Shown: in pieces, positions 19,601-38,560 of the stretch
Position numbering within the stretch: the first letter of the stretch is position 1
Layout of the letters: every line of letters starts with the position of its first letter
NCBI RefSeq assembly: GCF_900142415.1
Contig: NZ_FRAU01000005.1
Span: 37,854-101,853 of the forward strand
From: Rhodothermus profundi
Lineage (GTDB): Bacteria > Bacteroidota > Rhodothermia > Rhodothermales > Rhodothermaceae
Length of the DNA: 64,000 nucleotides
Direction: 5' to 3'
Position numbers and translations under genes: made by a program
Notes under the pieces: generated by a model
What the model saw: only the letters and a program-made list of their open reading frames with translations
The model's database searches: none
Told to the model about the DNA's origin: nothing

Positions 19601-20049
19601 ATACGCTGAGCGAGACGGCGCAATTTCAGTTCCTTGATGATTAGCCCTGCCATGATCGTTTTCCCCGCACCCGGGTCATCGGCGATGAGAAAACGAATCC
19701 GGGGCAGGTTGAGTACGTAGCCGTAGACAGCTTCTATCTGGTGAGGGAGCGGATCGACTTTCGAGATGTTCATGGCCAAGAGTGGGTCATAGAGAGAGGC
19801 GTAGCGGTAGCGGAGCGCCTCCAGGCGAAGGAAAATATCCCGCGCGGCACCAGCGAAATCTGTAGCCACAGGCACGATCTGGAGATTCTGGATATCCGCC
19901 CGGGGTAGCATCTGGTCAACATGATACCCCGATGTTGTTGTACGACCAACGATGCGCACATAGGAGCCTAAATCCTGAACAAGGTTGACCTCAACAGATT
20001 CAGGCCAGTGAGGTCCCTGAATGATGTCTCCCGGTTTAATGTGTCCCAT
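16699..20049 (-). CDS. SNF2/SF2 DNA helicase with C-terminal DUF3883 (PD-(D/E)xK-like) domain
   Basis: A 1116-residue protein. The N-terminal SNF2-type motor has motif I ADDPGAGKT (Lys130), motif II VDEAH (residues 223-227), LTATPHKGD, and the C-terminal motor with ATEAAGEGINLQFC and EQRMGRIHRYGQ. A coiled middle region follows. The last 100 residues form a DUF3883 domain with NLGFDI and, about 15 residues later, YIEVKAR, a pattern compatible with a PD-(D/E)xK nuclease core. Such helicases occur in DISARM (DrmD) and in helicase-methylase-ATPase defence modules. It is the last gene of the block, 279 bp after the DUF499 gene. It probably tracks or unwinds invading DNA; its own nuclease activity is unproven. 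Confidence 0.88.
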   Translation of the reverse strand: MGHIKPGDIIQGPHWPESVEVNLVQDLGSYVRIVGRTTTSGYHVDQMLPRADIQNLQIVPVATDFAGAARDIFLRLEALRYRYASLYDPLLAMNISKVDPLPHQIEAVYGYVLNLPRIRFLIADDPGAGKTIMAGLIIKELKLRRLAQRILIVVPGHLKDQWRREMKERFEEHFVVVDRRTMEALFGENVWLRENQIITSMDFAKQDDVLPSLAAAHFDLVIVDEAHKMSAYRYGNRLTRTARYRLGETLSQIATHLLFLTATPHKGDPENFRLFLDLLVPGFFATEDLLQESIRNRDNPLFIRRMKEDLKDFEGKPLFLPRHVRTISFDLGQESPKEKELYNALSRYVQTQYNKALTKDKRRNVAFALVILQRRFASSTYALYRTLQRRKKRLEDLLRMSDPERRKQLERPILFDPEEAEDASEAERWQQEEIWETLTVAENRRELEREIETVKHLLHQAEAIIHSGEEVKLRHFRQALNDLERRFPGEKILVFTESRDTLVYLEQRLRQWGYSVCTIHGGMKLEDRIQAEAVFRNEAQVMVATEAAGEGINLQFCHLMVNYDLPWNPNRLEQRMGRIHRYGQTKEVDIFNLVATDTREGMVLQRLFEKLEEIRQALGSDKVFDVLGEVYYGKNLAQLMLEAAASARSLDEILREIDIQVDEEYIRRVRENLGESLATRYIDYTRIREMADQAREHRLIPEYTEAFFKKGWEAAGGRYRKRRDGFLAVESIPPAIRRVAEEDAFRKRFGSLLNRYPKVAFDREVAFRHPDAEFVSFGHPLFEALLRWVEMSLNDALHRGAVFTDPDGRLDGVLLFYEGEITDGTGRVAGRRLLAFFADRKGGDVRPVNPALLWDLLEGGDTCGRDDVSLEALKELTLPVVLEELERYRTEIARERERQAHIKEKYGLRSLEHFILELDGDLINLYARQEQGEKVDLVIHNKKEQKRRYEQALRELEEEIRRERVLTLSTPRFVAAARVVPAKVAADKMSEDPDVEQVGMAVAMDYERRYSREPEDVSAQNLGFDIRSRDPRTGRKRYIEVKARAGVGPVALTKNEWFKAQRFGDEYYLYVVLNAATKPELYIIQNPAVNLKPEEVVEVRYWVGMEEILRGGREEG

Positions 20050-20328
20050 GGTTGTTTCTTTCTATCTACAGGTTGCTACTTAGTTGCTGGTTGCGCAGGG
20101 AATGCTGAGAGCGTGGTGGCAACTCACCGGGAGTGAGAAGTTTCTTTGAGACTTAACATAATCTCTGACACCAAATATTATATGCCTGAGATGAGATAAA
20201 GCCAATCTGCGAGCTGACCCAGCTGGAGGCTCCACAAAAGCAGGAGACCCATTTTTATCAGAGATGCCAGGTGATTCGAGAAATAATGAAATTTTACTTT
20301 CGACAGATGAGCTCGGCTTCAAGTATTT

Positions 20329-23300: not shown

Positions 23301-23457
23301 GGGTGCCGCCGTCAGTATTGAGAAAGGCGACGATGGTCTTCAGTACCTGGTGTTGGAGCGCGGGGTTCCGTTTGCCCTGGCGCACATCCCATTGCAGGCT
23401 GCTCTTGAATTCAACGGTCTGGCTTTCGCCGCCGGCTATGATCTGTCTGATGTTCAT
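20329..23457 (-). CDS. DUF499 ATPase with N-terminal AlbA_2 (Schlafen-type) domain
   Basis: A 1043-residue protein. Residues 1-130 form an AlbA_2 domain (TVEFKSSLQWD, FLNTDGGTLVIGIEDDG, FYVRVGTTTRSLN), a nucleic-acid-binding module of the Schlafen family. From about residue 200 on it is a DUF499 ATPase with Walker A FGGGKTHA (Lys264) and Walker B VLILMDEVLEYA (about 331-341). The ATG at 23457 was chosen because CAGGAGG lies 5 bp upstream; the frame is open a little further. It begins 1 bp after the stop of the sacsin-like gene, so translation is likely coupled. DUF499 proteins accompany DUF1156 methyltransferases in putative antiviral modules, where they may act as the motor or switch. The role is inferred from context. 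Confidence 0.87.
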   Translation of the reverse strand: MNIRQIIAGGESQTVEFKSSLQWDVRQGKRNPALQHQVLKTIVAFLNTDGGTLVIGIEDDGHILGLENDLRLLRHSRDRFEQHLANILSSHLGAQYAPLIQGRFEEVEGKLIYVLEVQPASEPIFLKGTRGEEFYVRVGTTTRSLNPKETVEYLKHRWPALKDARKIITEKQEQTGEVVRAFHTIAIPHDDILAGRLTMDVFAADLWEVFQGRAPDEYQDPGRFFQKTYPTEGLTNLLAVVEKRLSGRGGDPIIQVQTPFGGGKTHALIAMYHKAREWNARAVVLVGTVLDANKDTLWGVMAEQLTGTRVGFEGRTAPGREALRTLLATHQPVLILMDEVLEYAIKAAGVTVGQSNLAAQTQAFLQELTETVGTLERACLVVTLPSSLLERYDENAEGLFQQMQKVLGRMEKIYTPVQEHEISPVIRRRLFSRVDEAAARQVVEGFLHYAERENLLPPGMEPSEYRERFLVSYPFLPDAIDVLYHRWGSFSSFQRTRGVLRLLSLVVYNLRERNLPYITLADFDLADSEIRRELLKHIGPEFDSVIAADITDAAAGARKVDQELGDAYRWLRLGTRAATTVFLHSFSGGTERGATLGEVKRHATTLQNPASVVAEALEHLKTRLFYLQQSDGKVYFSNQPNLNRILLVREENIRPEDITNLERERLGRRMRGHRVKVYIWPESENDIPDTPELKLLIFRQRDEERMRAFLEKKGQTPRVHRNTLFFLAPMEHEHLALQRLLRQYAALRSIERDDTLRLTEEQRKEVKQRIAKLEKDLTDQVRNAYRLIYIPGPNGDLLELDMGTGTYGVDVPLDEEVYDKLRNEGEILERLEPLVLKERYLRDQEYVSTAQLAQSWSRTPGALRVVSEDAWRRCIVAGVQQGLFGLGVLEEGEIRCVAYKESPTVALAGNEIIIRADICEAQQTQQAQAASPPDGVESEATHMYSETIPASQVRDCTASTPGATATTESVPVTEPVRRTLTLRFVVSRGQVSSLLGVFNLLQHRFNRLEVTVNASEGEMTEQEYEHKVLEAFRQMGMEVEEA

Positions 23458-23458
23458 G

Positions 23459-26400
23459 CTAGCCTCCTGCATTCGGGCCAAAACGACTATCGGACCGGGT
23501 TTGAAATTTGTGCCTTTGGAGGATATGGTCTTTCCTTACTCTGTATAATACCTGGACACGTTCGAATCGTTCTGCTTCAAGTATTTCGGCTGGGTTTTGC
23601 AGGGGAAGGATTTCATCGGTGTTCAAGACAATCACCATAAGCCAGTATCGCGTGCCATACTCTTCCGCTTTCTTCCATTCATTCTCTGTCATCACAACGT
23701 CTTGCAAAGAGCTTAAGCCCTTCACCTCTACAACAAAATATTCTTCTCCATTCTCTACCACCAAGTCATAACCGCGATTTTGTTTCGACACGTCCTGCAC
23801 TCGATATCCTTGTTGTCGCCACCATTCTTCAGCCTTCTTCATGGCATATTTTTCCACATCGGCATCACCCTTCTGACCCCGATATCTGGAGACTGGTTTG
23901 ACATGTGACTCAGCCACGCCGATTTGATGCTTTACGGGAGTTTCTTGTTTAAATCGAGTCGATTCCTCTCGGGCAGATTCATTTGGACGAGGTCCACTTT
24001 TCGTGGTGAGAGACTGGAGTTCTTCTAAAGTGAGAGGGACGTAATCTTCGTCTCGTTCCTCGGCCCTTATCTGGTTAAGTTGTTTGTCTTCTGGATGTGC
24101 CGCATGGGAAGATGAAAGTTGAGGCTGTGCCGGCGTAACCTGGCGGTCATCTTCCACAAGCGTGTGGAGGTTGGACAGACTGACCTGTATCCTGCGCTCC
24201 CAGCGTTGTAGGATTTTCTGTAGCCGCAATTTGCTCCCCAATGCTTCCCATACGTCCTTTGTGAACTCTCGTAGACCGGGTACTTCCAGCGCTCGCTCTA
24301 AGGCATCACCTACAGGATCGGCCAGCGATTCCAGGGCATCAGGGGTGAGATACAAGTGCCAATTATCCCGGTCAAAGTAGGCTTCGTCCGTATCAGGGGC
24401 ACTGCGAATTCCCTTGATCTCGTAGTAGACGTATATCTGCTCGACACGCTTAACTGCAGGAAACTTTGTGGGCAGGTTCTGATTACCTGCCCGGTTTGCA
24501 AACTCTATAAGCAAGGGCCATATTCGGTGTAGCGTTGAGATGTCCCTGGCCAAAACAGAAATTTCTTGTCCTTCATGCTTAATGTGCGTGGTCGCTGTTG
24601 AGACACCTGGAATCTCCAAGCGACCCGCTAATTCTTCTAGCCCGGTTAAGGCCCACCAGCCCAGTGACCACGAACCAAACTTGCCCTGGAAGAGGTTGAC
24701 CAAACGTTCTTTGTCGGGTATCACCAAGTCCTGGGCCTTGTACCACCAGACTGTACCCCCTGAGTCGCGGCCCGGCCAACAGCGTTCTGTGCTGAGCAAA
24801 TGCCGGTCCTCTTCCTCCAGTTGATCCCAGTACTTCATCAAAAGGTCGGCAATGCGCCTTACCTGTTCAATATCGGGATGTTCTTTCTGTTTGGCCAGTT
24901 GAAGGAGACGTTTGGCAAGATGACCCGGCTGCGGGTCCTCAGAAACACCCAGAACTTGGACAAAGAACGACTTAAGGTCGTGTTTTCCCCATGCCGGACT
25001 GAGGTGGGGAACACTTTCTGACGGGTCGTACCAGCACACCTCGTCTGTACGGAACCAGCCATACTGGGGATGCAGGATAAGGGGCGAACTGTTGAAGTGT
25101 CTTGCTACATCCTCTATTTCGTTATTATCTTGCTTTGCAAGCCATTGGTAAATGGGTAGAACTTTGTTCACATCCCTCTCATTCTGATCGGCAAGGTCAT
25201 GCAAGTATTGGAGTACATCTTTTATGTCTACAGAGAGCCGGATGCCCAATATTTCTGCGAGTTTTCTATATTTTTGCACCCTGAGGGGAATATCGGGGTG
25301 CAGGTATCGCATCTCTGGACCAAGGACTTCCTGGAGAGAAGGATCCCATAATTCCCTTGGAGGCGCAGACATGCCTTGTGCATCCACCAGCCAGGCAGCC
25401 TCTCTGAGGCGAGCTATCCAGAGTGACAAAATTGTCTCAGACCGATTGGTGTAATAGAAGTACTTGACTTCTGCATTTTGCACTTTGGGGTGTTGCTCAA
25501 GTACTTCTGCCATTACGACCCAAAGACATCGAGAATTTTCTACTGTGGGATTACTGGACACTGCCCCATACACTGCTTCAAAACCATCAATGTCCCAGTC
25601 TACCCCCTCATATCCTTGAGTAGAGTACAGAAATAAATTTTCTGATGGATTCCTTCTCGAAATCCATTCTCTCACCTCCCAGTCGGATAGGTTTTCTTTC
25701 ACTGGTTTAACAACAGGAAGATCTTGTACCCCAAGAGCACGAAGAAATTCTCCCCAATCATCCTTGGACTCTTGTTGCTCCCTGTAATCCTCAGACACGA
25801 AAGAGCGTCCCCCAGCGATACGGAAGTATTGCTCCACTGCCCTAATCCCTCCCAATGCTGTAGGCAAGTACATGTTACTTGCGCTCATGTATTTTCCTTC
25901 TTGCGATCGTAAAAAGGGGAGCTCCCCTATCTTCCTCAGATCATCTCTTGCGATTTTCCCATCATTCCAGAGGTGATAGAGCATTCGAATGTGCAGCCTG
26001 TTATCATCGGCTGGCGGCACGGTTTCGTGACCATAAATCTCCTGTAACAGGCGTTCAACAACGTTGAATGGGGTAAACTCTCTCACTCCGAGTCCACGCA
26101 AGGATTCCCGAACGGCCTCATCGGTTGCCAAATCTTGCGCTATCAGAGGAAGGTATCTTTCAAACGGCTTGAGCACCTCAGGCAGGTCTGATGGTGGAAA
26201 CACGGCAACGCAAGGCTGAATATGAGCCCCAGTATGCACTCTCACAATGGGGATCTGCTGTATGTCTTCGAGTAAATCTCTTTGAGAGGCAAGATACCTG
26301 TAGAGTTTCTTGAGCCATTCGGTGGATTGCTGTTCGAACCATTGAGGTTCTTTGTTCGCAAGCCATTGCACTACATTCTTGCTGTGAATCGTTTCCACAC

Positions 26401-27760
26401 CGAACTCTTGGAGTAGCTCACGCGGGTAACCTTGCCTTAATTCCGGAGATACCCACATTGCCTTGGAATTACCGGTCAACTCACGCAAGTCTTGAACATC
26501 GATCAGACTATAGACATCACTATTATGTGCAAGATATACATCTTCCTTGCTGTAGAGACCTCCGTCTTCTCCGTGAATGAAGGCACCGCTCTCCAGTGCT
26601 TCATATAAATCCCCAACAGGAGCCACGAAGGGGCCCTTACCGTCATCTTTGCGTGGGAAGATATGCCAGACACTCGGAGGAAGTCTGTTTGCGTCTCGCA
26701 ATTTCTCCGGCAACTGCCGGAGGGTCTCTCCGAGTTCCTGTAAAGCCCAACGCGTGAGAGGATCGTTTTCTTGAATGCCTCTGCGGTCCAAGGTAGCCGC
26801 GAAGCGGGCACTGATGTGAAACCGCAATCCGGTATGCTGGTAAAGAGGGAGCCGCACAAATGCCATTCCTTCTTGTGGGAGATAGGCTATAGGAGGCTGA
26901 TATCGTAAGGCTATTGCGGACTTGGGCGTGATATTTTCTTTCACTTTTCTCCATCGTTTCGCTCCATGAGCGTCTCCGTTCTCCTCGAGGTAATTTACAA
27001 TTTCGGCGATAACATCTTGGGGGATTGCCTGCGATCTTTCCAAGCGTAGCCAATATTCCTCTCGTAAAGTTCCATCTACCTCGTACAAGAACTCCACTTT
27101 ATAGGCCTGCCATGCAGGATCTGGTACTTTTATAGATGTCCGTTCACAGACATATTCCGATGTGCGGTGCTTCACCTCATTTTTCCAAATAATGTTTTTC
27201 AGGGAGTCCATGAACAGGAGAAAGAGAAAGGCCTTCTCGTCAAAGATTTCCGCAAGTTTTTCAGTAGGTGTTCTTTTCACCTTTCTGAAAGGTAACCAGA
27301 AAACAGTTTTGCCTTTGCTGTACAGTTCGTTGACCAGGGACGGTAAGGCTGAGTTATCTACGGGGAATGGGTCAAGCGCGCTCTTGAGTCGAAAACGAAA
27401 TGCACCTGACAGAACGTGAGGCTCATCGGTTACCAGAAGCACAGCCTTAAACCCAATGCCAAAGTGTCCTATCGAGCGTGCATCCTTGTCGGAAACCAGA
27501 AGTCCTGAAATGGCTCTCACATCATTTTCGGAAAACGCTCTCCCGTCGTTCCATATGAGAAGTCCGCTTTCGTACAAATGAAATCCGAGATTTTTCGCGC
27601 CTGCGTCTTCTGCGTTCTGAATAATCTCTAAGGCTAACTCTTCAATAGAGGGACGCAATTTGACGCCAAGCGCTTGGGCAACCTCGTACCGTTTCTCACC
27701 CCATAGCCGTTCATTCCGACGACGAATTTCTTCGAAAAACACTGTTTTGTCAGCCACCAT
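23459..27760 (-). CDS. Sacsin-like GHKL ATPase with C-terminal DUF3883 domain
   Basis: A 1433-residue protein. The N-terminal GHKL (HSP90-type) ATP site is complete: the N-box IIQNAEDAGA with Asn49, the DxG motif WNDGRAF (Asp72, Gly74 region), and IGHFGIGFKAV (about 97-107). A long middle region resembles the sacsin/No-vein type but has no motif I can name. The last 150 residues are a DUF3883 domain: RGYDLVVENGEEYFVVEVKG, TENEWKKAEEYG. The start at 27760 has GGAGG 7 bp upstream and lies 16 bp after the methyltransferase stop. The gene is visibly more AT-rich than the methyltransferase and DUF499 genes on each side, which suggests a different origin. Proteins of this layout are frequent in defence islands; mechanism unknown. 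Confidence 0.85.
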   Translation of the reverse strand: MVADKTVFFEEIRRRNERLWGEKRYEVAQALGVKLRPSIEELALEIIQNAEDAGAKNLGFHLYESGLLIWNDGRAFSENDVRAISGLLVSDKDARSIGHFGIGFKAVLLVTDEPHVLSGAFRFRLKSALDPFPVDNSALPSLVNELYSKGKTVFWLPFRKVKRTPTEKLAEIFDEKAFLFLLFMDSLKNIIWKNEVKHRTSEYVCERTSIKVPDPAWQAYKVEFLYEVDGTLREEYWLRLERSQAIPQDVIAEIVNYLEENGDAHGAKRWRKVKENITPKSAIALRYQPPIAYLPQEGMAFVRLPLYQHTGLRFHISARFAATLDRRGIQENDPLTRWALQELGETLRQLPEKLRDANRLPPSVWHIFPRKDDGKGPFVAPVGDLYEALESGAFIHGEDGGLYSKEDVYLAHNSDVYSLIDVQDLRELTGNSKAMWVSPELRQGYPRELLQEFGVETIHSKNVVQWLANKEPQWFEQQSTEWLKKLYRYLASQRDLLEDIQQIPIVRVHTGAHIQPCVAVFPPSDLPEVLKPFERYLPLIAQDLATDEAVRESLRGLGVREFTPFNVVERLLQEIYGHETVPPADDNRLHIRMLYHLWNDGKIARDDLRKIGELPFLRSQEGKYMSASNMYLPTALGGIRAVEQYFRIAGGRSFVSEDYREQQESKDDWGEFLRALGVQDLPVVKPVKENLSDWEVREWISRRNPSENLFLYSTQGYEGVDWDIDGFEAVYGAVSSNPTVENSRCLWVVMAEVLEQHPKVQNAEVKYFYYTNRSETILSLWIARLREAAWLVDAQGMSAPPRELWDPSLQEVLGPEMRYLHPDIPLRVQKYRKLAEILGIRLSVDIKDVLQYLHDLADQNERDVNKVLPIYQWLAKQDNNEIEDVARHFNSSPLILHPQYGWFRTDEVCWYDPSESVPHLSPAWGKHDLKSFFVQVLGVSEDPQPGHLAKRLLQLAKQKEHPDIEQVRRIADLLMKYWDQLEEEDRHLLSTERCWPGRDSGGTVWWYKAQDLVIPDKERLVNLFQGKFGSWSLGWWALTGLEELAGRLEIPGVSTATTHIKHEGQEISVLARDISTLHRIWPLLIEFANRAGNQNLPTKFPAVKRVEQIYVYYEIKGIRSAPDTDEAYFDRDNWHLYLTPDALESLADPVGDALERALEVPGLREFTKDVWEALGSKLRLQKILQRWERRIQVSLSNLHTLVEDDRQVTPAQPQLSSSHAAHPEDKQLNQIRAEERDEDYVPLTLEELQSLTTKSGPRPNESAREESTRFKQETPVKHQIGVAESHVKPVSRYRGQKGDADVEKYAMKKAEEWWRQQGYRVQDVSKQNRGYDLVVENGEEYFVVEVKGLSSLQDVVMTENEWKKAEEYGTRYWLMVIVLNTDEILPLQNPAEILEAERFERVQVLYRVRKDHILQRHKFQTRSDSRFGPNAGG

Positions 27761-27776
27761 CGTAGGTCCTCCCAGG

Positions 27777-30719
27777 TCAGATTTCGTCAAACAACCGGCC
27801 CTGCCGTCCACTCTCTCGCACGGCCTGGCGCACGCGCTCGCGGCCAGCCAGGAAGCCGTCCAGCAGTTTCTTCTCCTTGCTGGCGATGGGTAGGGTCTCG
27901 GAGATGGCCTGGGCCACGCGGTAGAAGACCTCGCTGGCGCCGTAGCCTGTGGACGCGAGCAACTGCACCATTTCCTGCTGTTCTCCGGCCTCCCAGTGGC
28001 GCAGCGCGCGGTGTAAGGTGTCGATCAGGGGCGACGCATGCGTCGCCTCTACACGCAGGTCCTCGATGTGACGCTGGTGGGGACCCAGAACGCGCACGAA
28101 TTCCTGTTCCTTCTTGATGAAGGTGCCGCGTCGGTTCCACTCTTGCGCCAAGTCGATGCCACAGGATTGGGCCAACTTGCGGGCCTCATCGAAGGGGGCG
28201 CGGGCTTCGCCGAAGTTCCAGCGCCAGAGAACATAGAAGCGGGTCATGGAATCAATCTCACCCGCGAAACCATTGTGCAGAATCTGGCGCACCGCGAAGT
28301 CGGTGGCCAGGGTGCGTACCTCTTCCAACAGGCGGTCAGCGCGGATGATGTTGCCCTCGTAGTCCATGATCTTTTCGTATTTGCCGAAGACCTCGATGGC
28401 CGAGCCGATGGCGGCGATGAAGAAGTCCGCACCGCCGATGCCCTCCTCCCAGAGGCGCTGCAGTTTGCGGTCCAGGTGGCGGCGCAGTTCCTCGCGCACC
28501 TCATTGTAAAAGCCGGTCGCTTTACGCGCCACCTTGCGAGCGACAATGTAGATGGAGGAGGCCAGAGAAGCTGTTTCCTGCGCATTCATTCGAGCCTGCA
28601 TCTCGGTGCTGAGAGGCCAGGCACCGCTGACCACCAGGCCGCTGTCCAGCAAGGCGTTGATGACTGTCTCCCAGCCGACTGTCGTCTTGTAGGCGTAGAC
28701 GATGACCGCAATGCCATCGGGCTTGAGCACGCGGTGGATTTCGCGGAAGGCCTGGCTCAGCATGGTTTCAAAGCGCTGCTTGCCTTCCTCCAGGCCGCCC
28801 TTGCCGTGGGAGTAAGCCACGATTTCTTCGCCCTTGGGTGTGAGGGGTGTGGCGAAGAGGTCGGGATAGAGGTGCCCCACGGTGCGCTTGAGCCAGACAT
28901 AGAAGAAGTCGGAGAGGTAAGAGTAAGGCACGTTGTCGTAGTAGGGCGGGTCGGTGAGCACCGCATCGAAGTGATTGTCAGGGTAGGGCAGGCGGGTGGC
29001 GGAGGCGTGGGAGGTGTGAGGGGTGAGGGTTGGGGGGTGAGGGGTGAGGGAGAGATGTTGGATGACCTCCAAAATGCCTTCCATATCCCATTGGCCGCGT
29101 GAACCACTGAAAGGATTAACTTCGCCGAAATCCCAAACCATTGGTAAAGCTTGTCTATCAAACGCTCTTTCAAAGCTTAATGCATCTGCACGCCATCGCG
29201 TAAGACTGCACAAATGGGTGGATAATTTGTTCAGGACAAAAGCCAAATACGTCGCCACGGCTCGGGCGAAGTCCTCCCTCACCCCTCGTTCCTCACTCCT
29301 CACCCCTAATCCCTCACCCCTCACCCCTTCATACGCCTGGCGCACTTTCTCGGCGAAGGTGATGAGGGCCAGTTTCTGGCGGGCATTGAACAGGTCGCTC
29401 CAATTCTTCATCTTGTAATTAAGAACGCGGTTTGTACCTCCCATCGTGTTGGATGGTGTAGGCATTATCGGCTCGGTTGGCACAGGATCCATCCCCCACT
29501 CTAACATCAATCGCTCGCGCTTTTCGGCCAGAGCCCGTTCGGTTGCGGCATAGGCAGCCAGGTCGGCCTCGGTGGGCAAACGGTATTGTTTTCCCCCACC
29601 CCTCCTTCCTCGCCCCTCACCCCTCGTTACGACCACAGCCACCATGCGCTGGCCTGATTGGCCTTCTTGGAACAGGCGGCGAGTGGTCTTGGCGTCCATG
29701 ACCGCGCCACAGACGGGGCAGGTGACCACGGCCTGGGAAACGGTGCCCCGTTTGGGGTCGAAGCCCTCGGGCCAGGGGGCGTAGGGGCGACCCGCCGGGT
29801 TGCCCCTACGTTTGCCACGGGCGACGATCTCGAATTCCACCCGGCCGTCGCGCACTACGGGGCGCAAGGCGATTTCGCGGTCCTTCTTCTTGGCCAGCCA
29901 GAACTGGCGCATGAGGGGAATCTCTGCGCCGCAGGAGGGATTCTGGCAGGGCAGCGTGCGGGCCCAGATGTAGCCGACGATGGTCTCGTCGGGGTCGGGC
30001 GAGCGGTAGAAGGCGGCTAGTTCCTTGCGGGCCTCTTCGAGAACCCAGGTCCCCCATTTCTTCACGGCAGCCAACAAGGGGTTGAAGTCAGGCGGGACCG
30101 AGGTGGGAGACGGCTCAGGCTCCAGGCCCAGGCCCATCTGGGGGCCGTCATCGTTAGGCGCGGCCTCGTCCTGAGCGAGCAAGTCGGCAGGCATGCCCTC
30201 GAAGAGACGGCCGTACTTCTGGGGATACTCCAGGGTGGCCTTGAGGATGAGCACGGCCACAGGGTTGTAATCGTTGGCGTAGGTCTCACAGCCCAGGCGC
30301 AGCGCTTCCAGGGGAATGGCACCGCCGCCCGCGAAGGGATCGAGCACGCGCGGGGGCGGCACGCGGCCTGCCTCGATGTCGTCCATGGTGACCGGGCGGC
30401 CCAGTTCGGCGGAGAGGTGCTCCGCGTGGGCCTGGTAGATGTCGCGGCGGGCCTTTTCCAAGATATGCGGGTTGAGGGAGTTCTCCCACTTGCTCAGGTC
30501 GATGATGAACTGGCGCTGCTTCTGCCACTCCTCGGGCGTCTCCGGTGGGGGCACCAGCGCGGCGTAGGCCGTGGCCCGCGAGGAGGCCAGGGGCCGCCGC
30601 GCCCACCAGATGTGCAGCGTACTGATGTGCCCGTGGCGGATGTTCTTCTCGCGCGCGGATTCCGCGCTGACTTCCCTGACGGGAAAGGTTTCTTCAATGA
30701 GACGGCGGTCGTGGGTCAT
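27777..30719 (-). CDS. DUF1156-family DNA adenine methyltransferase with in-frame repeat insertions
   Basis: A 980-residue DNA methyltransferase of the DUF1156 type. Motifs: N-terminal SAREKNIRHGHISTLHIWWARR, the SAM-binding motif DPFAGGGAIPLEA (residues 127-139), a zinc-ribbon-like middle (CQNPSCGAEIPL and VVTCPVCGAVM), and the catalytic motif DPPYYDNVPYSYLSDFFY near residue 590. It probably marks host DNA for the helicase-ATPase partners encoded downstream. The reading frame passes intact through five palindromic or low-complexity insertions (separate entries), which lengthen the protein with repeats such as EGLGVRSEERGVRE. It starts 61 bp after the small 63-residue gene. Whether the enzyme remains active with these insertions cannot be told from sequence. 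Confidence 0.9.
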   Translation of the reverse strand: MTHDRRLIEETFPVREVSAESAREKNIRHGHISTLHIWWARRPLASSRATAYAALVPPPETPEEWQKQRQFIIDLSKWENSLNPHILEKARRDIYQAHAEHLSAELGRPVTMDDIEAGRVPPPRVLDPFAGGGAIPLEALRLGCETYANDYNPVAVLILKATLEYPQKYGRLFEGMPADLLAQDEAAPNDDGPQMGLGLEPEPSPTSVPPDFNPLLAAVKKWGTWVLEEARKELAAFYRSPDPDETIVGYIWARTLPCQNPSCGAEIPLMRQFWLAKKKDREIALRPVVRDGRVEFEIVARGKRRGNPAGRPYAPWPEGFDPKRGTVSQAVVTCPVCGAVMDAKTTRRLFQEGQSGQRMVAVVVTRGEGRGRRGGGKQYRLPTEADLAAYAATERALAEKRERLMLEWGMDPVPTEPIMPTPSNTMGGTNRVLNYKMKNWSDLFNARQKLALITFAEKVRQAYEGVRGEGLGVRSEERGVREDFARAVATYLAFVLNKLSTHLCSLTRWRADALSFERAFDRQALPMVWDFGEVNPFSGSRGQWDMEGILEVIQHLSLTPHPPTLTPHTSHASATRLPYPDNHFDAVLTDPPYYDNVPYSYLSDFFYVWLKRTVGHLYPDLFATPLTPKGEEIVAYSHGKGGLEEGKQRFETMLSQAFREIHRVLKPDGIAVIVYAYKTTVGWETVINALLDSGLVVSGAWPLSTEMQARMNAQETASLASSIYIVARKVARKATGFYNEVREELRRHLDRKLQRLWEEGIGGADFFIAAIGSAIEVFGKYEKIMDYEGNIIRADRLLEEVRTLATDFAVRQILHNGFAGEIDSMTRFYVLWRWNFGEARAPFDEARKLAQSCGIDLAQEWNRRGTFIKKEQEFVRVLGPHQRHIEDLRVEATHASPLIDTLHRALRHWEAGEQQEMVQLLASTGYGASEVFYRVAQAISETLPIASKEKKLLDGFLAGRERVRQAVRESGRQGRLFDEI
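28027..28050. repeat. Palindromic element inside the DUF1156 gene
   Basis: 24 bp form an inverted repeat with an uninterrupted 18-bp palindromic core GGCGACGCATGCGTCGCC and one mismatched pair outside it. It is translated in frame as part of EATHASPL. Similar sequences of the form GGGGCGACGCATGCGTCGCCC are familiar to me as dispersed palindromes in some thermophile genomes (Chloroflexota), but I cannot check this here. Confidence 0.75.
29010..29053. repeat. GTGAGGGG low-complexity insertion inside the DUF1156 gene
   Basis: The plus strand repeats GTGAGGGGTGAGGG several times. The minus-strand frame reads it as the proline/threonine-rich stretch SLTPHPPTLTPHTSH just before the catalytic DPPYY motif. 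It is out of character with the rest of the enzyme and is probably an inserted repeat. Confidence 0.75.
29273..29331. repeat. CCTCACCCCT low-complexity insertion inside the DUF1156 gene
   Basis: The same repeat unit as at 29010-29053 but in the opposite orientation (CCCTCACCCCTC). It is translated as EGVRGEGLGVRSEERGVRE. The pair of inverted copies lies on both sides of about 220 bp of coding sequence. Confidence 0.75.
29588..29630. repeat. C-rich low-complexity insertion inside the DUF1156 gene
   Basis: A third, more degenerate copy of the CCTCACCCCT type (CCTCGCCCCTCACCCCTCG). It is translated as TRGEGRGRRGGG within the region between the zinc-ribbon segment and residue 400. Confidence 0.65.
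29780..29810. repeat. Palindromic element inside the DUF1156 gene
   Basis: 31 bp, CGTAGGGGCGACCCG followed by CCGGGTTGCCCCTACG, give a near-perfect inverted repeat with one G-T mismatch. It is translated in frame as GKRRGNPAGRPYAP. This GTAGGGGC-GCCCCTAC form is a well-known type of dispersed bacterial palindrome; its presence inside a coding sequence without breaking the frame is notable. Confidence 0.8.
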
Positions 30720-30780: not shown

Positions 30781-30972
30781 CTAAGTATTCACCACCTTGG
30801 CCAAGCAAGTATCGTGATCAATGCCCTCCAGGGGGTGGGGAGGCCAGACACCCAACGCACGCGCGTGTTCGAGCAGAACCTCAAAGACGCGTAGGTTCGC
30901 CTCCAGGTCGGGCTCCTGGCTGCACTGCCACTCGGCTTCGAATTGTTGCCATGCCTTTCTATCCCGGATCAT
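30781..30972 (-). CDS. Small protein of unknown function, coupled to the type III-C operon
   Basis: 63 residues beginning MIRDRKAWQQFEAEWQ and ending PLEGIDHDTCLAKVVNT. Its ATG overlaps the stop of the RAMP gene as ATGA, so it is clearly translated as part of the CRISPR operon, and it is followed 61 bp later by the methyltransferase gene. The amphipathic helical pattern and the PHPLEGID segment look conserved; I recall small proteins of this form in other bacteria, but cannot name the family. It could be an anti-toxin-like or adaptor protein; no function can be assigned. Confidence 0.75.
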   Translation of the reverse strand: MIRDRKAWQQFEAEWQCSQEPDLEANLRVFEVLLEHARALGVWPPHPLEGIDHDTCLAKVVNT

Positions 30973-31880
30973 GTTTTCCTCTTACGTCTTCCTGTCCAAA
31001 AGCCGTCGCGTTCAATGAAAAACACAAACTCTAACTCTTCCTCTTTCGGTTCTAAAATCTGCGTGCCCGGCTGCCAGTAGAGTTGACAGATTGGTCGTGG
31101 CGTCTGCCAATCCCATTGGACAAGGGCCTCTCGGTCGCCTTTTGCAGACGGAAATACCCCATGGGCTACAAGGTATGAAGGCTGTTTTACGACGGGCGTA
31201 TCGCCGTTTAATTCAACTTCATCGCCAAAACACTTCTCTGCCTCTTCCCACGGCTTTCGCTTTGAAAAAGGTAGCAATACCAGGTGTCCAAAGCCATATC
31301 GCGTCTCGCCGCCGATGAAGACTTCCCGAACATCTTTCAGTGCACTTTGTAGGTGCTGGGGTAAAGTATCGTTCAGAAACACGTATCCCACAAAAGCCAC
31401 CGGAGAAGGCTGGTCGTGGGCTTGTCCTTGTGCCGGTTTCCAGTGCGTGGCGATGCACTCGACCTCCCGCAGGGTACCCTCTTCGGCGGCGCCGGAACCG
31501 GGCGCGATGGCCGTGCTCGGTCGGGTGTGAAGGAACCGCCGGCGGAAGCGGCGGTCGGGCTCATTCTTACCGTCTTCTCGATGCCAAAGTAGACCTTTAT
31601 CCTCTTCGTAGCGTGGGAGCCAGGCGTACCAGTGGCCATTCACCTGCTCTGCCGGGAAGAGATAGGTGAAGCGAGCGTGTTCCTGAAGTTTCCGGCCGAT
31701 ATCTTCATAGTTTGGAAATGAACTACTGGCCCGCTGCCGTGCGACTTCGGCGGTCAACGCGGCCCACATGTTGCGAGCCGGGATGTAAAGCCGCGTGCGA
31801 TTCAGGGCTCCGGCAGGGGTGTGACCGATGTAAAGCGGGGAGTGCAACTGCCAGACCCAGCGGTAAAGCGTCCAGCTCAT
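30969..31880 (-). CDS. RAMP-superfamily CRISPR protein, Cmr3/Cas5 position of type III-C
   Basis: A 303-residue RAMP protein. The N-terminus LHSPLYIGHTPAGALNRTRLYIPARNMWAALT is a RAMP beta-alpha opening, and VFIGGETRYGFGHLVLL is the glycine-rich loop. In type III complexes the remaining RAMP besides Cmr1, Cmr4 and Cmr6 is the Cas5-like Cmr3, which holds the crRNA 5' handle next to Cas10; I assign it by elimination and position. The ATG overlaps the Cmr5 stop (ATGA), with GGGAGG upstream. The C-terminus is coupled to the 63-residue gene. Sequence similarity to classical Cmr3 is weak. Confidence 0.75.
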   Translation of the reverse strand: MSWTLYRWVWQLHSPLYIGHTPAGALNRTRLYIPARNMWAALTAEVARQRASSSFPNYEDIGRKLQEHARFTYLFPAEQVNGHWYAWLPRYEEDKGLLWHREDGKNEPDRRFRRRFLHTRPSTAIAPGSGAAEEGTLREVECIATHWKPAQGQAHDQPSPVAFVGYVFLNDTLPQHLQSALKDVREVFIGGETRYGFGHLVLLPFSKRKPWEEAEKCFGDEVELNGDTPVVKQPSYLVAHGVFPSAKGDREALVQWDWQTPRPICQLYWQPGTQILEPKEEELEFVFFIERDGFWTGRRKRKT

Positions 31881-32233
31881 GATGTACCGCCTCCCTTGGC
31901 TTTCAGGTGATAGCGCGCGTAGGAAAGGGCCGTGCGCAACAGGTCGCGAGCGAAGAGCAGGTCGTCCAGGTCTTCCGATAGCTTCTTTATGGCCTCCAGG
32001 ATGTCGTTTGCTCCAGCCAGCCGGTTGTGGAAGATGCCTTGAAGGAAATTTAAGGTTTTCGAACTCATGTCACCAGCCACGTTGCTATGCCGGGCCTGGA
32101 GGTAAAGGAACATGGCATACGGCCCCTGCTCCTCCAGCACGGCCAGAGCTGCATTGACGCTCTTTTCTTCTATGCCAGAAATCTGGGTTATTTCACGACC
32201 CAGTTCGGCGCACCGGATGTCCAGGTTGGTCAT
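31877..32233 (-). CDS. cmr5: Type III small subunit Cmr5 (Cas11-like)
   Basis: A 118-residue helical protein. The segment LAVLEEQGPYAMFLYLQARHS is the Cmr5 signature, followed by KTLNFLQGIF. Cmr5 lines the inner filament of the complex along the target RNA. I chose the ATG at 32233, which has GAGG 5 bp upstream and lies just after the cmr4 stop; an in-frame ATG at 32248 overlaps cmr4 by 8 bp and is also possible. Confidence 0.88.
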   Translation of the reverse strand: MTNLDIRCAELGREITQISGIEEKSVNAALAVLEEQGPYAMFLYLQARHSNVAGDMSSKTLNFLQGIFHNRLAGANDILEAIKKLSEDLDDLLFARDLLRTALSYARYHLKAKGGGTS

Positions 32234-32240
32234 CTGAGCC

Positions 32241-33323
32241 TCACGCATCGCTGGCCTCCTCTTGCTGGTTCTCTGTTTCCGCCTGCATTTCGGAAGGTTG
32301 ATGCCCTTGGCAATTTATCTCTTCTCCCTCTGCCCATCTGCACTCACAAATCACTTCCACCCGCCCCATGCCACGCGTACCCATGCCACCGATGCCCAGA
32401 TGCTTGAGATAATTGTGGGCTTCCCTGACCGTTTCATACACCTTATTCGGGCTATCCACAGCTTGGATGTCTTGTCCGTTTATGCGGAAATGCTTGGGAT
32501 TCTTGGCGATAATTTCCCAGATTAACACGGTGCTGCGAGGAAGCGCTTCATAAGAAAACAGAGCCTTGTCTTCAGCCGCGCCGGTTTCCGGGTTAATGGA
32601 GACCGACGTACGCACTTCCAGGTTGCTGTTCACGATGTGGGCGAACAGGCGGTCAGGCACCAGGGCCAGGCGGTCGCGAATGTAGTCGGGAACGCCAAGC
32701 GAGTCCAGGTGCCTCGTTATTTGCCCCATTTCACTGCATTGCCGGGTCTCCAACAACAGCCAGCCCAAGTTGAGGGGATTCCCCGGTTCTTCGGCCAGGT
32801 ATACGGCATCACCGTCCACACCGCTTACCTTCAGGCCCACCCATTCCAGCGCCATGAGTGAGGTGACCCACATGGGACCTCGGCGGGTAGGCACGGGAAA
32901 GAGCAGCACGTGGGCATCGCTGAAGGCGGCCAGACCGGCGAAGCCTCCTTCCTGGCCGGCTCCCCGGGCAAACCCGAAGACGGTGCAGACCGGGCAGTCG
33001 GGCTGGCGGCAGTGGCCGTGGTCTTTATCAAGCCCCAATCCGGCACAATCGGGGTAAAAGGGTTTTTGCCGGACCTGCTGACCGCTCTGGCTTTGTTGCT
33101 GGCGCTGTTCTTCGTAGTGCATCGCCACATAGGTCCGGTACACTCCGGCCAGGCTGGAGCCGGGGATTTTGGGAACTTGTGTGACCGGATCGCGGACGAT
33201 GGTCAGATCCACCCGACCGATACGAGCACCGCCGGTCCCCACATGGATGGGATCCAGGGCAATGCCAGTGTGCAGAAATTTTTCGTAGCTTGCCATACCT
33301 TTTTCTGCTTTTATGAGACTCAT
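32241..33323 (-). CDS. cmr4: Type III backbone RAMP Cmr4 (Cas7), target-RNA cleaving
   Basis: Cmr4 forms the backbone and cuts target RNA every six nucleotides. The opening DPIHVGTGGARIGRVDLTIVR followed by KIPGSSLAGVYR is the family signature; Asp39 in RVDLTI corresponds to the catalytic Asp of Pyrococcus Cmr4, so RNase activity is probably kept. A Cys/His cluster (HCRQPDCPVC near residues 100-110) could bind zinc. The ATG at 33323 overlaps the cas10 stop (ATGA); a second ATG nine codons later is the alternative. 360 residues, with a C-terminal tail rich in Glu and Gln. Confidence 0.92.
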   Translation of the reverse strand: MSLIKAEKGMASYEKFLHTGIALDPIHVGTGGARIGRVDLTIVRDPVTQVPKIPGSSLAGVYRTYVAMHYEEQRQQQSQSGQQVRQKPFYPDCAGLGLDKDHGHCRQPDCPVCTVFGFARGAGQEGGFAGLAAFSDAHVLLFPVPTRRGPMWVTSLMALEWVGLKVSGVDGDAVYLAEEPGNPLNLGWLLLETRQCSEMGQITRHLDSLGVPDYIRDRLALVPDRLFAHIVNSNLEVRTSVSINPETGAAEDKALFSYEALPRSTVLIWEIIAKNPKHFRINGQDIQAVDSPNKVYETVREAHNYLKHLGIGGMGTRGMGRVEVICECRWAEGEEINCQGHQPSEMQAETENQQEEASDA

Positions 33324-36300
33324 TCTTTCAGCACTGATAGATGCCAGTCCAGCGACCACGTAAGCTCGTCCTGCACTGCGGCCGCCGTCAGAGCATCCAG
33401 CGCTGTTCCCCGACATTCCAGATGATGCACCAGAAGGGCTCGGTAGGTATCCTGACGCAGTTGTTCAGAAGCTGCTGGAGCACCTTCCGGTGTGCGCCAT
33501 GCTTCCTCTACGTGGCCCAGCTCGCTCCGCAAATGCTGAAGGGCCGTCTGACTGGGCGCTACTCTCCTGAGCAATCCCCAGGTCTCACGCATTTGCTTCC
33601 ACTCCTCCAGGTAACGCACATCCCAATCAGCGAAGCGGGCTGCGGTGCTTTCCATAAAGAGAGCGGCTATACGCGCAGGGAATACTCGGATTCCATCCCC
33701 CGGGCGCAGGTCAGCCACGTGCCGGAAGACGCGGCCATAGGGATGGCGGAAATCCCGGGGAAAGCGCAACTCGGTGTCCTCCACCTCCACGTAGGGATAG
33801 AAGACGTCCTCCCGGCCATCGGGCATGATGGTGGGCACCACCCGCAGGGTGCTCCGGCCATCCTTTCGCTTCAGGCGAAGCGCCGTCACACCGGCCCGGC
33901 ATTCCACTTCTTCTACCTGCCAAATTTCTACTTTTTTTTCTTCTTTCTCATTGGCCACAAGCGCATCTTCCAAGTTGCGTGTGGCCTCGATCACGGCCTG
34001 ATAGGGCAACGTGCGGGGGAAGGCGACCACACCCACCCGCAGGGGCAGACGGTCCCACACCCGTGCAAAGCGTTCCTTCCACCACGAAGCGGCCAGGTCC
34101 ACGCATTCTGAAGCTGCTTCCAGCGGCACCAGCACCCGGAAGCGCAGGGGCGAGATTTCTACAGGGATGACCGGCGCGTAAACCCCCAGATGGGAATGCG
34201 GTTTGCCAAGGTCACGCACGGTCTCCACTTGCATATCCCGTATGCGTCCAAATCGGTCCTCTTCTTCCAGTGGGATAACTTCATCCTGCAAGACCGCTTT
34301 GGCTTCCTCGGGTTGCAGCAGACGAGCCAGGTTGGAAGCTGTTACAAAGCCTCCCAGACTTTGTATATAGACCAGACTGATTTGCTGGCCTCGCCAGCGA
34401 CCATCGTAAAGGGTCAAGTCTCGCCAGCCGTTCTTATTCTGGGGGACGAGCACCAGCCGCCGCACCCGCCAGGGATTGGCACTGCGGGCAGCAATTTGCC
34501 GAAATTCCCGGAGTAGATCGCAGAAGAACTCCTCTGCCTCGCGCCAGAAACGATACACCCGGCCCGGGGAGGGGAGTTTGCGGAATGATTGGAAGACAAA
34601 CCATTTGGCATTTTGTATCGTATCGCTGGAATTCCACGAAGGTGCTACGGATCGATCTTCGACAAGACGATTGTAGATGCGTTCCCAAGAAGATGATGCC
34701 ACACTAGGATCTGAAAACTCTTCTTCTAAATTCGGAATAATACTTCGCAGAATCCCGTCCGTAGAAATCTGTTTCGGGGGACGATCTATTCGTTTTTTGA
34801 AATACTGTGTTAGCCTTTCGTGGAGGGGCAAAGTTCGCCAACGCTTGGTTTGATTCTCTATAGCTCTCGCAACTTTCTTGTTGTATTTAAACCACTCCGA
34901 AATGGCCTGCGCCCTTAGGCTGTCCACTCGCTCACCAGAAAGCCAGGATTCTACGTCCAAGGAGAAAGTGACCAGGGCCAGGCGGCCGTTGCGGTCGGCC
35001 ACTTCCTCGAACCAGATAGTGTCGTATCCCAGATGCCCCTGAACCCAAGCGTCCCGGCGGTGGTGGCGTCGCTCGCGGCACATCCGGCAGGGACGGGTCT
35101 TGCTGGTAGGGTCGCCATTCAAGCGCACGCGGCATACGGGGCAGACATGGCCACGGGCTTCAGAGGGTGTCGTCCAGCGCACATCCCAGCGTTTGTGAAC
35201 AGGAATGGCCACGACCTTCAAAGCCTCCTCGCGCTCCTGCACAAGAGGCACCAGAGAACGGGTGGGTGCGCTCAGGCGCACATGGGGCGGAGTCTCCAGG
35301 TCAAGGTCGCAAGCAATCCGTTCCACCTCGTCTTGGAGCCATTTCTTCCAGTTCTGAAGCCAAAGTGCAAAATTGTCTTCATCATACTGAAAATTTGGAT
35401 CGTTTCGGCGCTGGCGCTCCTGTTCCTCCTCGTCAAACCGCTCGCCAGGGAAGGAAAAGACGACCACGCTGTCGTCCCGATATAGCAGCGAGCCCACGGC
35501 CAGGTCCACCTCCACGAGCTCAGCCACCCGGCGGAAGAACTCTTCAATCGTCCCCTGGGCGCCGGTCCAATCGCCGATCTTCACTGAGCGGGCTTCATAG
35601 TGGTCAGCCCCGATGGCGACGGTAAGCAGACGCCAGCGCACTTTTCCTTTGATATTTTTATCCGTCCACGGGTGGTTATGGTTCAACAGCGCCCCTGCCA
35701 CCGCACTTTTGAACAGAGCTGCGGCCACATAGGATTGGTCCCACAGGGTCACATCGTTGTTAGGCAGGCGCGTTTCGGCCAGGGTGGAGAGAAAGGCACG
35801 GCGGATGAAAGAATCCTCACCGATGGCTTGTTCCCGCCAGCGCCTCCAGGCGGGCACATCGGCCGGTGGATGGCTGGCCCCCAATCGGCAGGCCTCCTCC
35901 AGGATCCGGCGGATTTCCTTCACCAATTGCTGCCAGCCCTGGGGTGTGAGAATCTCGGGCGGGTCGGCCAGCAGGTTGCGCTTGGGGTGGCCCCAGGGGG
36001 AGGAGAGCCACATATGAAGCACCGTTTGATTAAGGTAGTGTGAGGTGCTTCCAGGAAGATTTTTCTCCACACCGGAGACGACGCCATGAGCGGCCTGAAG
36101 AAGCCCAAGCATTCCGGTATTTCGGCCTGCATGCTTTTCTGTAAAGTCAGCAAAACTTCCAGGCCAGGCGTTGTTAGGAATGCCAGCGCCGTACAGCCGC
36201 CGCACCCACTCCAACAGATTGTCCCAGGGAAAAGGCGGCGTTTCCTGTTGATGCCATTGGCGTTCGTTATAGCCGTTGTTCTCGCTCCCGTGCCGGCGCA

Positions 36301-36409
36301 GAAACTCAGCTCGCGCCTTCCCGGCCATATGGAACCAACCGATGGCTTCCATGGCCAGGAGCAAAGGGCGGTGTTGGCGCAGGGTTTCCGCAGGGGTGAA
36401 GGTGCTCAT
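33320..36409 (-). CDS. Csx11-type Cas10 (type III-C large subunit), probably catalytically inactive
   Basis: A 1029-residue Cas10. It matches Csx11, the III-C large subunit: an N-terminal HD-like region, palm strands (RLLTVAIGADHYEARSVKIGDW), a zinc ribbon CPVC...CRMC at about 421-450, and the C-terminal segment RPGDGIRVFPARIAALFMESTAARF. The HD motif, usually LHDxGK, reads FHMAGK (His27-Met28), so the metal-binding Asp is lost. No GGDD or GGDE occurs anywhere; the palm position carries LLYRDDSVVVFSF (about 303-315). Neither DNA cutting nor cyclic oligoadenylate synthesis is therefore expected. The ATG at 36409 has AGGAGG 6 bp upstream and overlaps the stop of the preceding gene (ATGA). Confidence 0.88.
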   Translation of the reverse strand: MSTFTPAETLRQHRPLLLAMEAIGWFHMAGKARAEFLRRHGSENNGYNERQWHQQETPPFPWDNLLEWVRRLYGAGIPNNAWPGSFADFTEKHAGRNTGMLGLLQAAHGVVSGVEKNLPGSTSHYLNQTVLHMWLSSPWGHPKRNLLADPPEILTPQGWQQLVKEIRRILEEACRLGASHPPADVPAWRRWREQAIGEDSFIRRAFLSTLAETRLPNNDVTLWDQSYVAAALFKSAVAGALLNHNHPWTDKNIKGKVRWRLLTVAIGADHYEARSVKIGDWTGAQGTIEEFFRRVAELVEVDLAVGSLLYRDDSVVVFSFPGERFDEEEQERQRRNDPNFQYDEDNFALWLQNWKKWLQDEVERIACDLDLETPPHVRLSAPTRSLVPLVQEREEALKVVAIPVHKRWDVRWTTPSEARGHVCPVCRVRLNGDPTSKTRPCRMCRERRHHRRDAWVQGHLGYDTIWFEEVADRNGRLALVTFSLDVESWLSGERVDSLRAQAISEWFKYNKKVARAIENQTKRWRTLPLHERLTQYFKKRIDRPPKQISTDGILRSIIPNLEEEFSDPSVASSSWERIYNRLVEDRSVAPSWNSSDTIQNAKWFVFQSFRKLPSPGRVYRFWREAEEFFCDLLREFRQIAARSANPWRVRRLVLVPQNKNGWRDLTLYDGRWRGQQISLVYIQSLGGFVTASNLARLLQPEEAKAVLQDEVIPLEEEDRFGRIRDMQVETVRDLGKPHSHLGVYAPVIPVEISPLRFRVLVPLEAASECVDLAASWWKERFARVWDRLPLRVGVVAFPRTLPYQAVIEATRNLEDALVANEKEEKKVEIWQVEEVECRAGVTALRLKRKDGRSTLRVVPTIMPDGREDVFYPYVEVEDTELRFPRDFRHPYGRVFRHVADLRPGDGIRVFPARIAALFMESTAARFADWDVRYLEEWKQMRETWGLLRRVAPSQTALQHLRSELGHVEEAWRTPEGAPAASEQLRQDTYRALLVHHLECRGTALDALTAAAVQDELTWSLDWHLSVLKE

Positions 36410-37311
36410 GGGTCGCCTCCTGCTGGAAGCCAGTTTTGGATTGCCTCCCACAGCTCCTCGCGTTGAGTTTCCTCTATGGAGCCATGCGTTTTGTGGAATG
36501 CCTGCCATCGTTCAATGCGAGCTGTGCCCCAGCCCACGGTACGTTTGGCAGAAATGCCGTAGGTAGTGAGCAGAACCTCGATGGCTTCGAGCAGTTTGGG
36601 GAGCACATCCTCCGGTTTAGCCTCCGGCTTCATCCCCGGCCAGGGGGCGTAGAGAAGGGAAAGAGTTCCCTTAGCGCCGGGGGGAACGACCTCATAATAA
36701 ATGGGCTGAGTACCAGCGCGACGCTCCCGGCTGTGGGGATTGATAACCTCAAAGCCGATACGATCAAACCAAGTAGGGTAGAAGACCAGCGCCCCACGGT
36801 GAAAATCTTCCTTCTCGCCTTTTTCGTTGCCAAAAAGATGTAGAATCCAATCAGGGTCCTGCCAATCCCTCTCGAAGGATTTCCCCGATTCAAGAAATTC
36901 CCGCAATCCTGCCCGCATCCGACACGCCCAGCGTAGCATGCCCTTCCAGGACGAAGCCGCCATAAAGGGCACACCGAAGACCCGGTCCTTGCGCACGGGA
37001 TTGTCCATCACGTGGAAGAGCCGATCGTCCTTGGAGTACCAGGGGGTGAGGAGTTCGAATTCCACCTGGAAGGCGAGCCAATCTGAGGAAAGCAGGTTGG
37101 AAAAATCTGGAACGGTCTGCGAGATGAGGTCGGGGATGTTGATGTTACCCCTCGCATGTCGCATGTACCTATTACGAGCGTTTTCCTTATCGCCTTGAAA
37201 GAAGCGCATGGACACTTCATCCACAAAGCCACCCGCAAGGCTCTTAGGGCGCGCCAGTGTTTCTTGCAGGCTCGTGTTATCGGCTAGCAAAACAAAGTAA
37301 TTCCATGTCAT
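36406..37311 (-). CDS. Type III RAMP protein, Cmr6-like (Cas7 group)
   Basis: A 301-residue RAMP. The segments VFGVPFMAASSWKGMLRWACRMR (substrate-binding RAMP helix region), HRGALVFYPTWFDRIGFEVINPHSRERR and the glycine-rich end YGISAKRTVGWGTARIERW fit Cmr6, the subunit at the crRNA 3' side of the complex. Position between Cmr1 and Cas10 agrees with type III-C order. I chose the ATG at 37311 (MTWNYFVLLAD) because the frame before it overlaps cmr1 and has no family-like sequence. Coupled to cas10 by ATGA. Confidence 0.82.
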   Translation of the reverse strand: MTWNYFVLLADNTSLQETLARPKSLAGGFVDEVSMRFFQGDKENARNRYMRHARGNINIPDLISQTVPDFSNLLSSDWLAFQVEFELLTPWYSKDDRLFHVMDNPVRKDRVFGVPFMAASSWKGMLRWACRMRAGLREFLESGKSFERDWQDPDWILHLFGNEKGEKEDFHRGALVFYPTWFDRIGFEVINPHSRERRAGTQPIYYEVVPPGAKGTLSLLYAPWPGMKPEAKPEDVLPKLLEAIEVLLTTYGISAKRTVGWGTARIERWQAFHKTHGSIEETQREELWEAIQNWLPAGGDP

Positions 37312-37321
37312 GATTTTTCCC

Positions 37322-38560
37322 CTACGAGAACAATCGCTCAAGAATTTGCTCGCCTTTGATAAACTCTTTCTCAGGATCAAAATCCTTCCACCCCGGATCT
37401 GGCTTTCTTCCGTTTCCATTACCGTCCCTTAGAACTTTCAGTCTTTCCATTATTTCTTGAAACCCGTCTTGATTCTGGACAAAACCGAAAGTCCGGCGCG
37501 CATTCTCTGGCTCCTTGAAACTGAAAACCTTTTTGCTCTCGGGATCAATATTTCGTTGCCGATTAGGTCGTCTTCCGGCAAGCCACGAGTCACCTTGGGA
37601 AGACTGATTTTTGGGCTCTGGTCTGCCGATTACGAAATTGAATGAACTTGTATCTGCATCCTGCCGTGCCAGATACCTTCTTTTCACGCACCAGAAGTGC
37701 TGGAGAGAGGCCCACGAAAAAGCGCTATTGTCAAATCCTTTACACCATCGATCGTCTTTCACATAGGCTTCTATCTGCTCACGAGTGCACTCTACCCCCT
37801 GGGGCCTTGCTTCAACTGCAATAAGACCAAAATCCTGATGGTGCCTTTTACCTACCCATGCATCAATTTGTGTTTGACTGCCCCTGCGCTGAACCATGAT
37901 CGTCAGAGGGTCACCGTGGCGTCTTCCACGGAGCAATGTCTCAACCTCAGTAAGGCTGGCGACCTGAGTTCCTTCAATTTCCAAGATTACATCGTTCCCT
38001 TGCAATGGAAGACCACGACGAGCATGGTGCACAATTACTTGGCCACTGGAATCATCCAAGTCCTCAGCCCCTAGATCCGCTATACCCCATTCTTCGGAGG
38101 GCTTGAATACTGTCTTCCCACCAATGGCTCCACATTTGTCAATCAGGCGTAGAGTTAAATCTAGAAGGCACCATTCTTCAGGCCGAATCTGACGCAAAGG
38201 GATGAATTTCAGGGCGAATATTTGGCCAGCCCGGATCTGATCCTGAATGACGCCTCCGTTTTCATCCACCACCATCAGCCGGAACTTCCGCGCCCAGCCG
38301 GTACAGCCGAAGAGTTCGCACACCACGCAGTGGTGGCCAGGATCGGTGGGCTTTTTTGACGAATCCTGCGGGCAGCGCACCTCTTTGGCCGTAGGATCAC
38401 ACGCCTTCCCACCCAAACCCCGCACCAACACCTCGTACCACCAGCGCAGGGAACCCATGATCCCGGTCTCATAGACACGGTCTGTTCGGCCGTTTACACC
38501 ACCCGTCTGAAGTGGAGTTAATGAGCTAATTTTCCAGATCTTTTCCATCAGCTTTACCAT
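37322..38560 (-). CDS. cmr1: Cmr1-type RAMP protein with an inserted PDZ-like domain
   Basis: First gene of the type III-C operon, 412 residues. The Cmr1 part is clear: SSLTPLQTGGVNGRTDRVYETGIMGSLRWWYE, then CVVCELFGCTGWARKFRL, then IDKCGAIGGKTVFKPSEEWG. Between this and KRHHQDFGLIAVEAR, where Cmr1 normally has a short loop, lies a segment (about residues 157-237) with the full pattern of a PDZ domain: GQVIVHHARRGLP, LQGNDVILEIEGTQVASL, LLRGRRHGDPLTIMVQRRG. Cmr1 caps the 3' end of the complex, so the PDZ domain would be exposed to solvent. An alternative start four codons downstream (MEKIW) is possible. Confidence 0.88.
   Translation of the reverse strand: MVKLMEKIWKISSLTPLQTGGVNGRTDRVYETGIMGSLRWWYEVLVRGLGGKACDPTAKEVRCPQDSSKKPTDPGHHCVVCELFGCTGWARKFRLMVVDENGGVIQDQIRAGQIFALKFIPLRQIRPEEWCLLDLTLRLIDKCGAIGGKTVFKPSEEWGIADLGAEDLDDSSGQVIVHHARRGLPLQGNDVILEIEGTQVASLTEVETLLRGRRHGDPLTIMVQRRGSQTQIDAWVGKRHHQDFGLIAVEARPQGVECTREQIEAYVKDDRWCKGFDNSAFSWASLQHFWCVKRRYLARQDADTSSFNFVIGRPEPKNQSSQGDSWLAGRRPNRQRNIDPESKKVFSFKEPENARRTFGFVQNQDGFQEIMERLKVLRDGNGNGRKPDPGWKDFDPEKEFIKGEQILERLFS

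Follow-up and report, generated by a model that had tools for sequence, protein, structure and literature searches.

A PDZ domain inserted in the glycine-rich loop of Cmr1 from a type III-C CRISPR operon, a possible protein-docking site

Introduction

The type III-E Craspase, in which Cas7-11 is combined with TPR-CHAT, acts through a docked protein and without a Cas10 cyclase. In DegS, it is the binding of C-termini by PDZ domains that gates the protease. Type III-C CRISPR complexes are rare. This subtype is listed as one of those whose polymerase domain is inactivated (PMC12669027). In TtCmr, Cmr1 and Cmr6 cap the 3' end of the crRNA and position the seed, and pairing with the target starts there (PMC8376896). 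In RAMP proteins, the glycine-rich loop has a helix on one side and a strand on the other (PMC3150331).

Here we analyze a 64,000-nucleotide stretch of Rhodothermus profundi DNA (the window), which contains a type III-C operon whose cmr1 gene encodes an additional PDZ domain. No description of a PDZ domain in Cmr1, type III systems or RAMP proteins was found in the open-licence papers searched.

The type III-C operon

The operon ends at 30969 and consists of six tightly packed genes in the order cmr1-cmr6-csx11-cmr4-cmr5-cmr3:

37322 to 38560, minus strand: cmr1, type III-C, 412 amino acids, first gene of the operon, bearing the PDZ insert (PF03787, 9.6e-19; TIGR01894, 4.9e-17)
36406 to 37419, minus strand: cmr6 (PADLOC Cmr6, 5.7e-72)
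33320 to 36508, minus strand: csx11, the Cas10 of type III-C (TIGR02682, 2.2e-73), lacking GGDD and with HM at the HD position
32241 to 33416, minus strand: cmr4, the Cas7 backbone (TIGR02580, 4.8e-32), with the candidate RNase aspartate retained (GRVDLTIVRD)
31877 to 32248, minus strand: cmr5, the small subunit (PADLOC Cmr5, CAS-III-C effector_SS, 1.1e-30)
30969 to 31880, minus strand: cmr3, Cas5-like (PADLOC Cmr3, 2.4e-80)

The presence of Csx11 (TIGR02682) identifies the operon as type III-C; the window protein scores 248.0 bits, marginally below the cut-off of 248.95, and its relatives at loci L001 and L002 exceed that cut-off. Profile searches recovered a complete Cmr1/3/4/5/6 set, in which the window Cmr1 scores 62.6 bits against TIGR01894 (cut-off 28.65); its RAMP-family match spans residues 10-150 and its Cmr1-model match residues 12-101.

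A GGDD-like motif is absent from all eight Csx11 proteins examined, which come from both PDZ-bearing and PDZ-less loci, and the HD motif is missing in 8 of 8 as well, the HD position reading HM. Cmr4 retains the aspartate of its GRVD motif as a candidate RNase residue, which we take to correspond to Cmr4 D26 of Pyrococcus furiosus and which would, by analogy, cleave target RNA. From these motifs, the complex would be unable to make cyclic oligoadenylate and seems to be left with target-RNA cleavage by Cmr4 alone.

The surroundings of the operon contain other defence genes. Directly downstream lies an Hma-type defence system (window 16699-30719, minus strand) that encodes HmaA, HmaC (with an AlbA_2 domain), a TmtA/NOV-like protein and HmaB; homologs of HmaA, HmaB and HmaC also adjoin two type III-C loci without the PDZ (L050 and L051). 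Just after HmaA there is a degenerate Cmr1 relic (window 16500-16730, minus strand), recognizable by LHALTDYLDRQ, GLLRWWFEVLVW and VCDPSDPGNRCPQ in two frames with stops, which suggests the remnant of a lost second III-C copy beside the Hma system. Window positions 1-9340 hold a probable type I-E CRISPR array with a 29-nt repeat and 61-nt spacing, together with genes for cas1, a Cas_CT1975-family (Cas7e-type) protein and cas3.

The insert in Cmr1 is a PDZ domain

An earlier note on this DNA, made from the letters alone, had proposed that a PDZ-like domain interrupts Cmr1. The cmr1 reading frame is uninterrupted, residues 157-237 agree with that reading, and the insert is an in-frame segment of ~82 residues between IGGKTVFKPSEE and HHQDFGLI:

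37844 to 38089, minus strand: PDZ insert in the glycine-rich loop of Cmr1, residues W158-R239 (PF13180, alignments, AF2, Foldseek)
37862 to 38041, minus strand: PDZ_2 profile match, residues 174-233 (PF13180)
38081 to 38092, minus strand: E157-W158-G159-I160, candidate carboxylate-binding loop (alignment, analogy with HtrA PDZ domains)

The window Cmr1 matches the PDZ_2 profile PF13180 with E = 2.4e-07 and 31.4 bits, where the curated gathering cut-off is 27; scored by itself, the insert reaches 35.3 bits. When solved structures were searched by sequence with the insert, HtrA-type PDZ domains ranked first. An AF2 model of the full protein, of moderate confidence (pLDDT 67.5, with only 3 aligned sequences), shows a RAMP fold and, apart from it, a PDZ fold. 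The insert makes up a discrete strand-strand-strand-helix-strand unit with block-mean pLDDT of ~62-85 over residues 161-220, flanked by low-confidence junctions on both sides. Modeled in isolation, the insert adopts a PDZ fold (pLDDT 76.9, pTM 0.69), and each of the 50 Foldseek matches listed for this model is a PDZ domain or a protein that contains one, predominantly of the bacterial HtrA/Deg, RseP and Ctp types; the model of the entire Cmr1 retrieves the AF1868 Cmr1 (4l6u) together with many PDZ chains. Profile search and structure prediction, the two checks that had been suggested, thus agree with the proposal, and the opposite outcome, a segment common to all III-C Cmr1 proteins and without a PDZ match, did not occur. 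The Cmr1 insert has a genuine PDZ fold, and its gene belongs to a type III-C operon.

The proposed internal map of the domain fared less uniformly. The loop that binds the carboxylate in PDZ domains of the HtrA type is located upstream of the strand equivalent to GQVIV, so by this analogy E157-W158-G159-I160 is the likely candidate for the loop, and the earlier assignment to LPLQGNDVILEIEG is doubtful. The alignment shows W-G-[IL]-A-D-L-G retained in all four PDZ-bearing Cmr1 proteins. The EWGI candidate lies outside the HMM match and is modeled with pLDDT <50 in the isolated domain and with low confidence in the full protein.

Insertion site and distribution

A homologous PDZ domain is found at the identical residue in three other Cmr1 proteins, giving a small sample of four with the window. 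L001 is a Geobacteraceae MAG, L009/L048 comes from a species of the window's own genus and L016/L049 from a member of the same phylum as L001. PDZ_2 scores exceed the cut-off of 27 in three of the four, the window being joined by L001 (30.0 bits) and L048 (39.1 bits), and the match at L049 is weak (18.0 bits).

Most relatives lack the insertion. At the insert site, a short linker such as KPTDEPRRANKLHHKDFGLV is present in no fewer than nine close relatives (L002, a Nitrospirae MAG; L017-L022; L041; and L047, a Thermus plasmid), and no PDZ match was found by profile search in any PDZ-lacking relative scanned. Together with the scores of the PDZ-bearing relatives, this puts the PDZ match of the window Cmr1 beyond chance. 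The flanking motifs IGGKTVFKP and HH.D.GL are retained in relatives without the insert, and more distant Cmr1 proteins have a classical short loop (GALGARTQMGFGLV). Because relatives have a linker or classical loop at this point, the insertion site is the apex of the RAMP-fold glycine-rich loop, which is bracketed in the model of the window protein by a helix (127-143) and a strand (247-251).

The Thermus thermophilus plasmid operon (L047 6455-16222) has a cmr1 gene interrupted by an IS3 element and a split csx11. At another site, the genome that contains the window encodes a second Cmr1, which is of the classical kind and lacks a PDZ (L004, G000:C6:11267-11698).

A possible protein-docking site

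We give roughly an even chance to the explanation that a PDZ domain captured into the Cmr1 loop serves as a peptide-binding, protein-docking site on the III-C complex. By this proposal, based on sequence comparison and predicted structure, one group of III-C complexes would have captured a bacterial PDZ domain of the HtrA/RseP type at the apex of the Cmr1 glycine-rich loop. The domain would then sit at that end of the crRNA filament which Cmr1 and Cmr6 form and where target RNA pairing begins. Its ligand there would be a short peptide, in all likelihood the C-terminal end of some other protein, and binding could hold an effector or regulator on the complex or signal that a protein has bound. 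Docking is the simplest reading because the PDZ sits at the cap end of a complex without messenger output. A more specific version, that the domain is a docking port through which a protein-based output or input replaces cyclic-oligoadenylate signaling in a complex whose Cas10 lacks HD and GGDD, is possible if doubtful.

The earlier note had suggested that a partner might be encoded in the same block of genes and called for a search for conserved C-terminal tails; such a partner has found no support so far. No PDZ-ligand C-terminus is conserved among the co-encoded subunits of the PDZ-bearing loci. The Cmr6 tail GG[DTSP]P, found in all four of these loci, was rejected as a ligand: its codons form the Shine-Dalgarno sequence and overlapping start of csx11 (GGAGG or GGAGGG...CCATGA), so the ending is a by-product of translation signals and not evidence for a ligand. 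A dedicated neighboring gene was also rejected, since the flanks differ: the window has Hma genes, L048 has an Eco57I-like methylase and a metallo-beta-lactamase-fold protein, and L049 has no recognized gene in common with the other PDZ-bearing flanks. A partner gene seems to have no set position next to the operon. Two further points weigh against docking: the candidate carboxylate-binding loop has low pLDDT, and III-C complexes in general, the close Thermus relative included, do without a PDZ.

The PDZ could instead act within the complex, packing on Cmr6 or binding a subunit tail, and stabilize the Cmr1/Cmr6 cap or set crRNA length with no outside protein. The insertion loop does belong to a crRNA-capping subunit next to Cmr6 (PMC8376896), the tails of Cmr4, Cmr5 and Csx11 are variable, and Csx11 ends in VLKE[ST]L in two of the three PDZ-bearing loci with csx11 sequence. 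However, the window Csx11 stops at VLKE and lacks the final hydrophobic residue, no tail is conserved in all PDZ-bearing loci, and that of Cmr6 is explained by the overlapping ribosome-binding site, leaving an internal role somewhat improbable.

Evolution of the insert

A single clade of PDZ-bearing loci was ruled out by AU tests on the Cmr1 core with the PDZ columns removed (p = 0.0005) and on Cmr6 (p = 0.002). What breaks up the group is the Thermus plasmid copy without a PDZ, which lies among the PDZ-bearing loci and clusters with the window and L016 in the Cmr1 core. Repeated gain, gain with later loss, or exchange of segments between loci likely accounts for this distribution, as judged from the trees. 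Recent capture of a host protein was rejected, since PDZ-like matches in the window's own genome are weak (best E = 0.003, 24%), and a scan of viral contigs yielded no relative.

The same data bear on whether the domain has no specific role and is a near-neutral insertion that a variable surface loop tolerates. Loop length varies among PDZ-less relatives, the close Thermus relative lacks the domain, the PDZ-bearing proteins do not form one clade, and the window and L016 proteins are 68% identical outside the PDZ and 40% within it. Nevertheless, each of four divergent loci has kept the domain whole and in frame, with WG[IL]ADLG, GL.LQ..D[VI]I and HG motifs conserved. The window and L001 domains are 56% identical, and retention of a recognizable PDZ among copies that are 40-56% identical to one another argues against decay. 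We consider a neutral insertion unlikely. It is very improbable that the PDZ senses the C-terminus of a phage or host protein, for example the product of the targeted transcript, and gates target-RNA capture or cleavage, for which one can invoke the precedent of DegS, whose structures are among the Foldseek matches, and the seed-proximal position of the domain (PMC8376896).

The PDZ on the complex offers a concrete way into the question of how type III-C functions with an inactive Cas10. The insertion also shows that a whole folded domain fits into the RAMP glycine-rich loop, a natural place for fusions to Cmr complexes.

Comparison with known systems

The PDZ-bearing locus is a variant of the known type III-C (Csx11/MTH326-like) CRISPR system, and the PDZ is what is new. 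The window has the same cmr1-cmr6-csx11-cmr4-cmr5-cmr3 gene set, a Csx11-family Cas10 with its polymerase motif lost and, likewise, no CRISPR array immediately adjoining the operon; it differs by the extra domain encoded in cmr1. With the type III-B Cmr1 (AF1868, PDB 4l6u), the window protein shares the RAMP fold with its helix, glycine-rich loop and strand, whereas its own loop is longer (GGKTVFKP...HHxDFGL) and carries the PDZ.

The insert resembles the PDZ domains of HtrA/DegP/DegS, RseP and Ctp (PF13180, PF17820) in profile, predicted order of strands and helix, and Foldseek match, but it is ~4 residues shorter than HtrA-type domains at the usual 'AGLxxGD' turn (RRGLPLQGND). In addition, those domains are found in proteases or the cell envelope, whereas the window PDZ is part of a cytoplasmic RNA-guided complex. 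The proposed mode of action would resemble that of Craspase, in that a type III complex works by way of a docked protein and with no Cas10 cyclase; the III-C complex differs in that no protease partner was found, its docking module is unrelated and it is built from multiple subunits.
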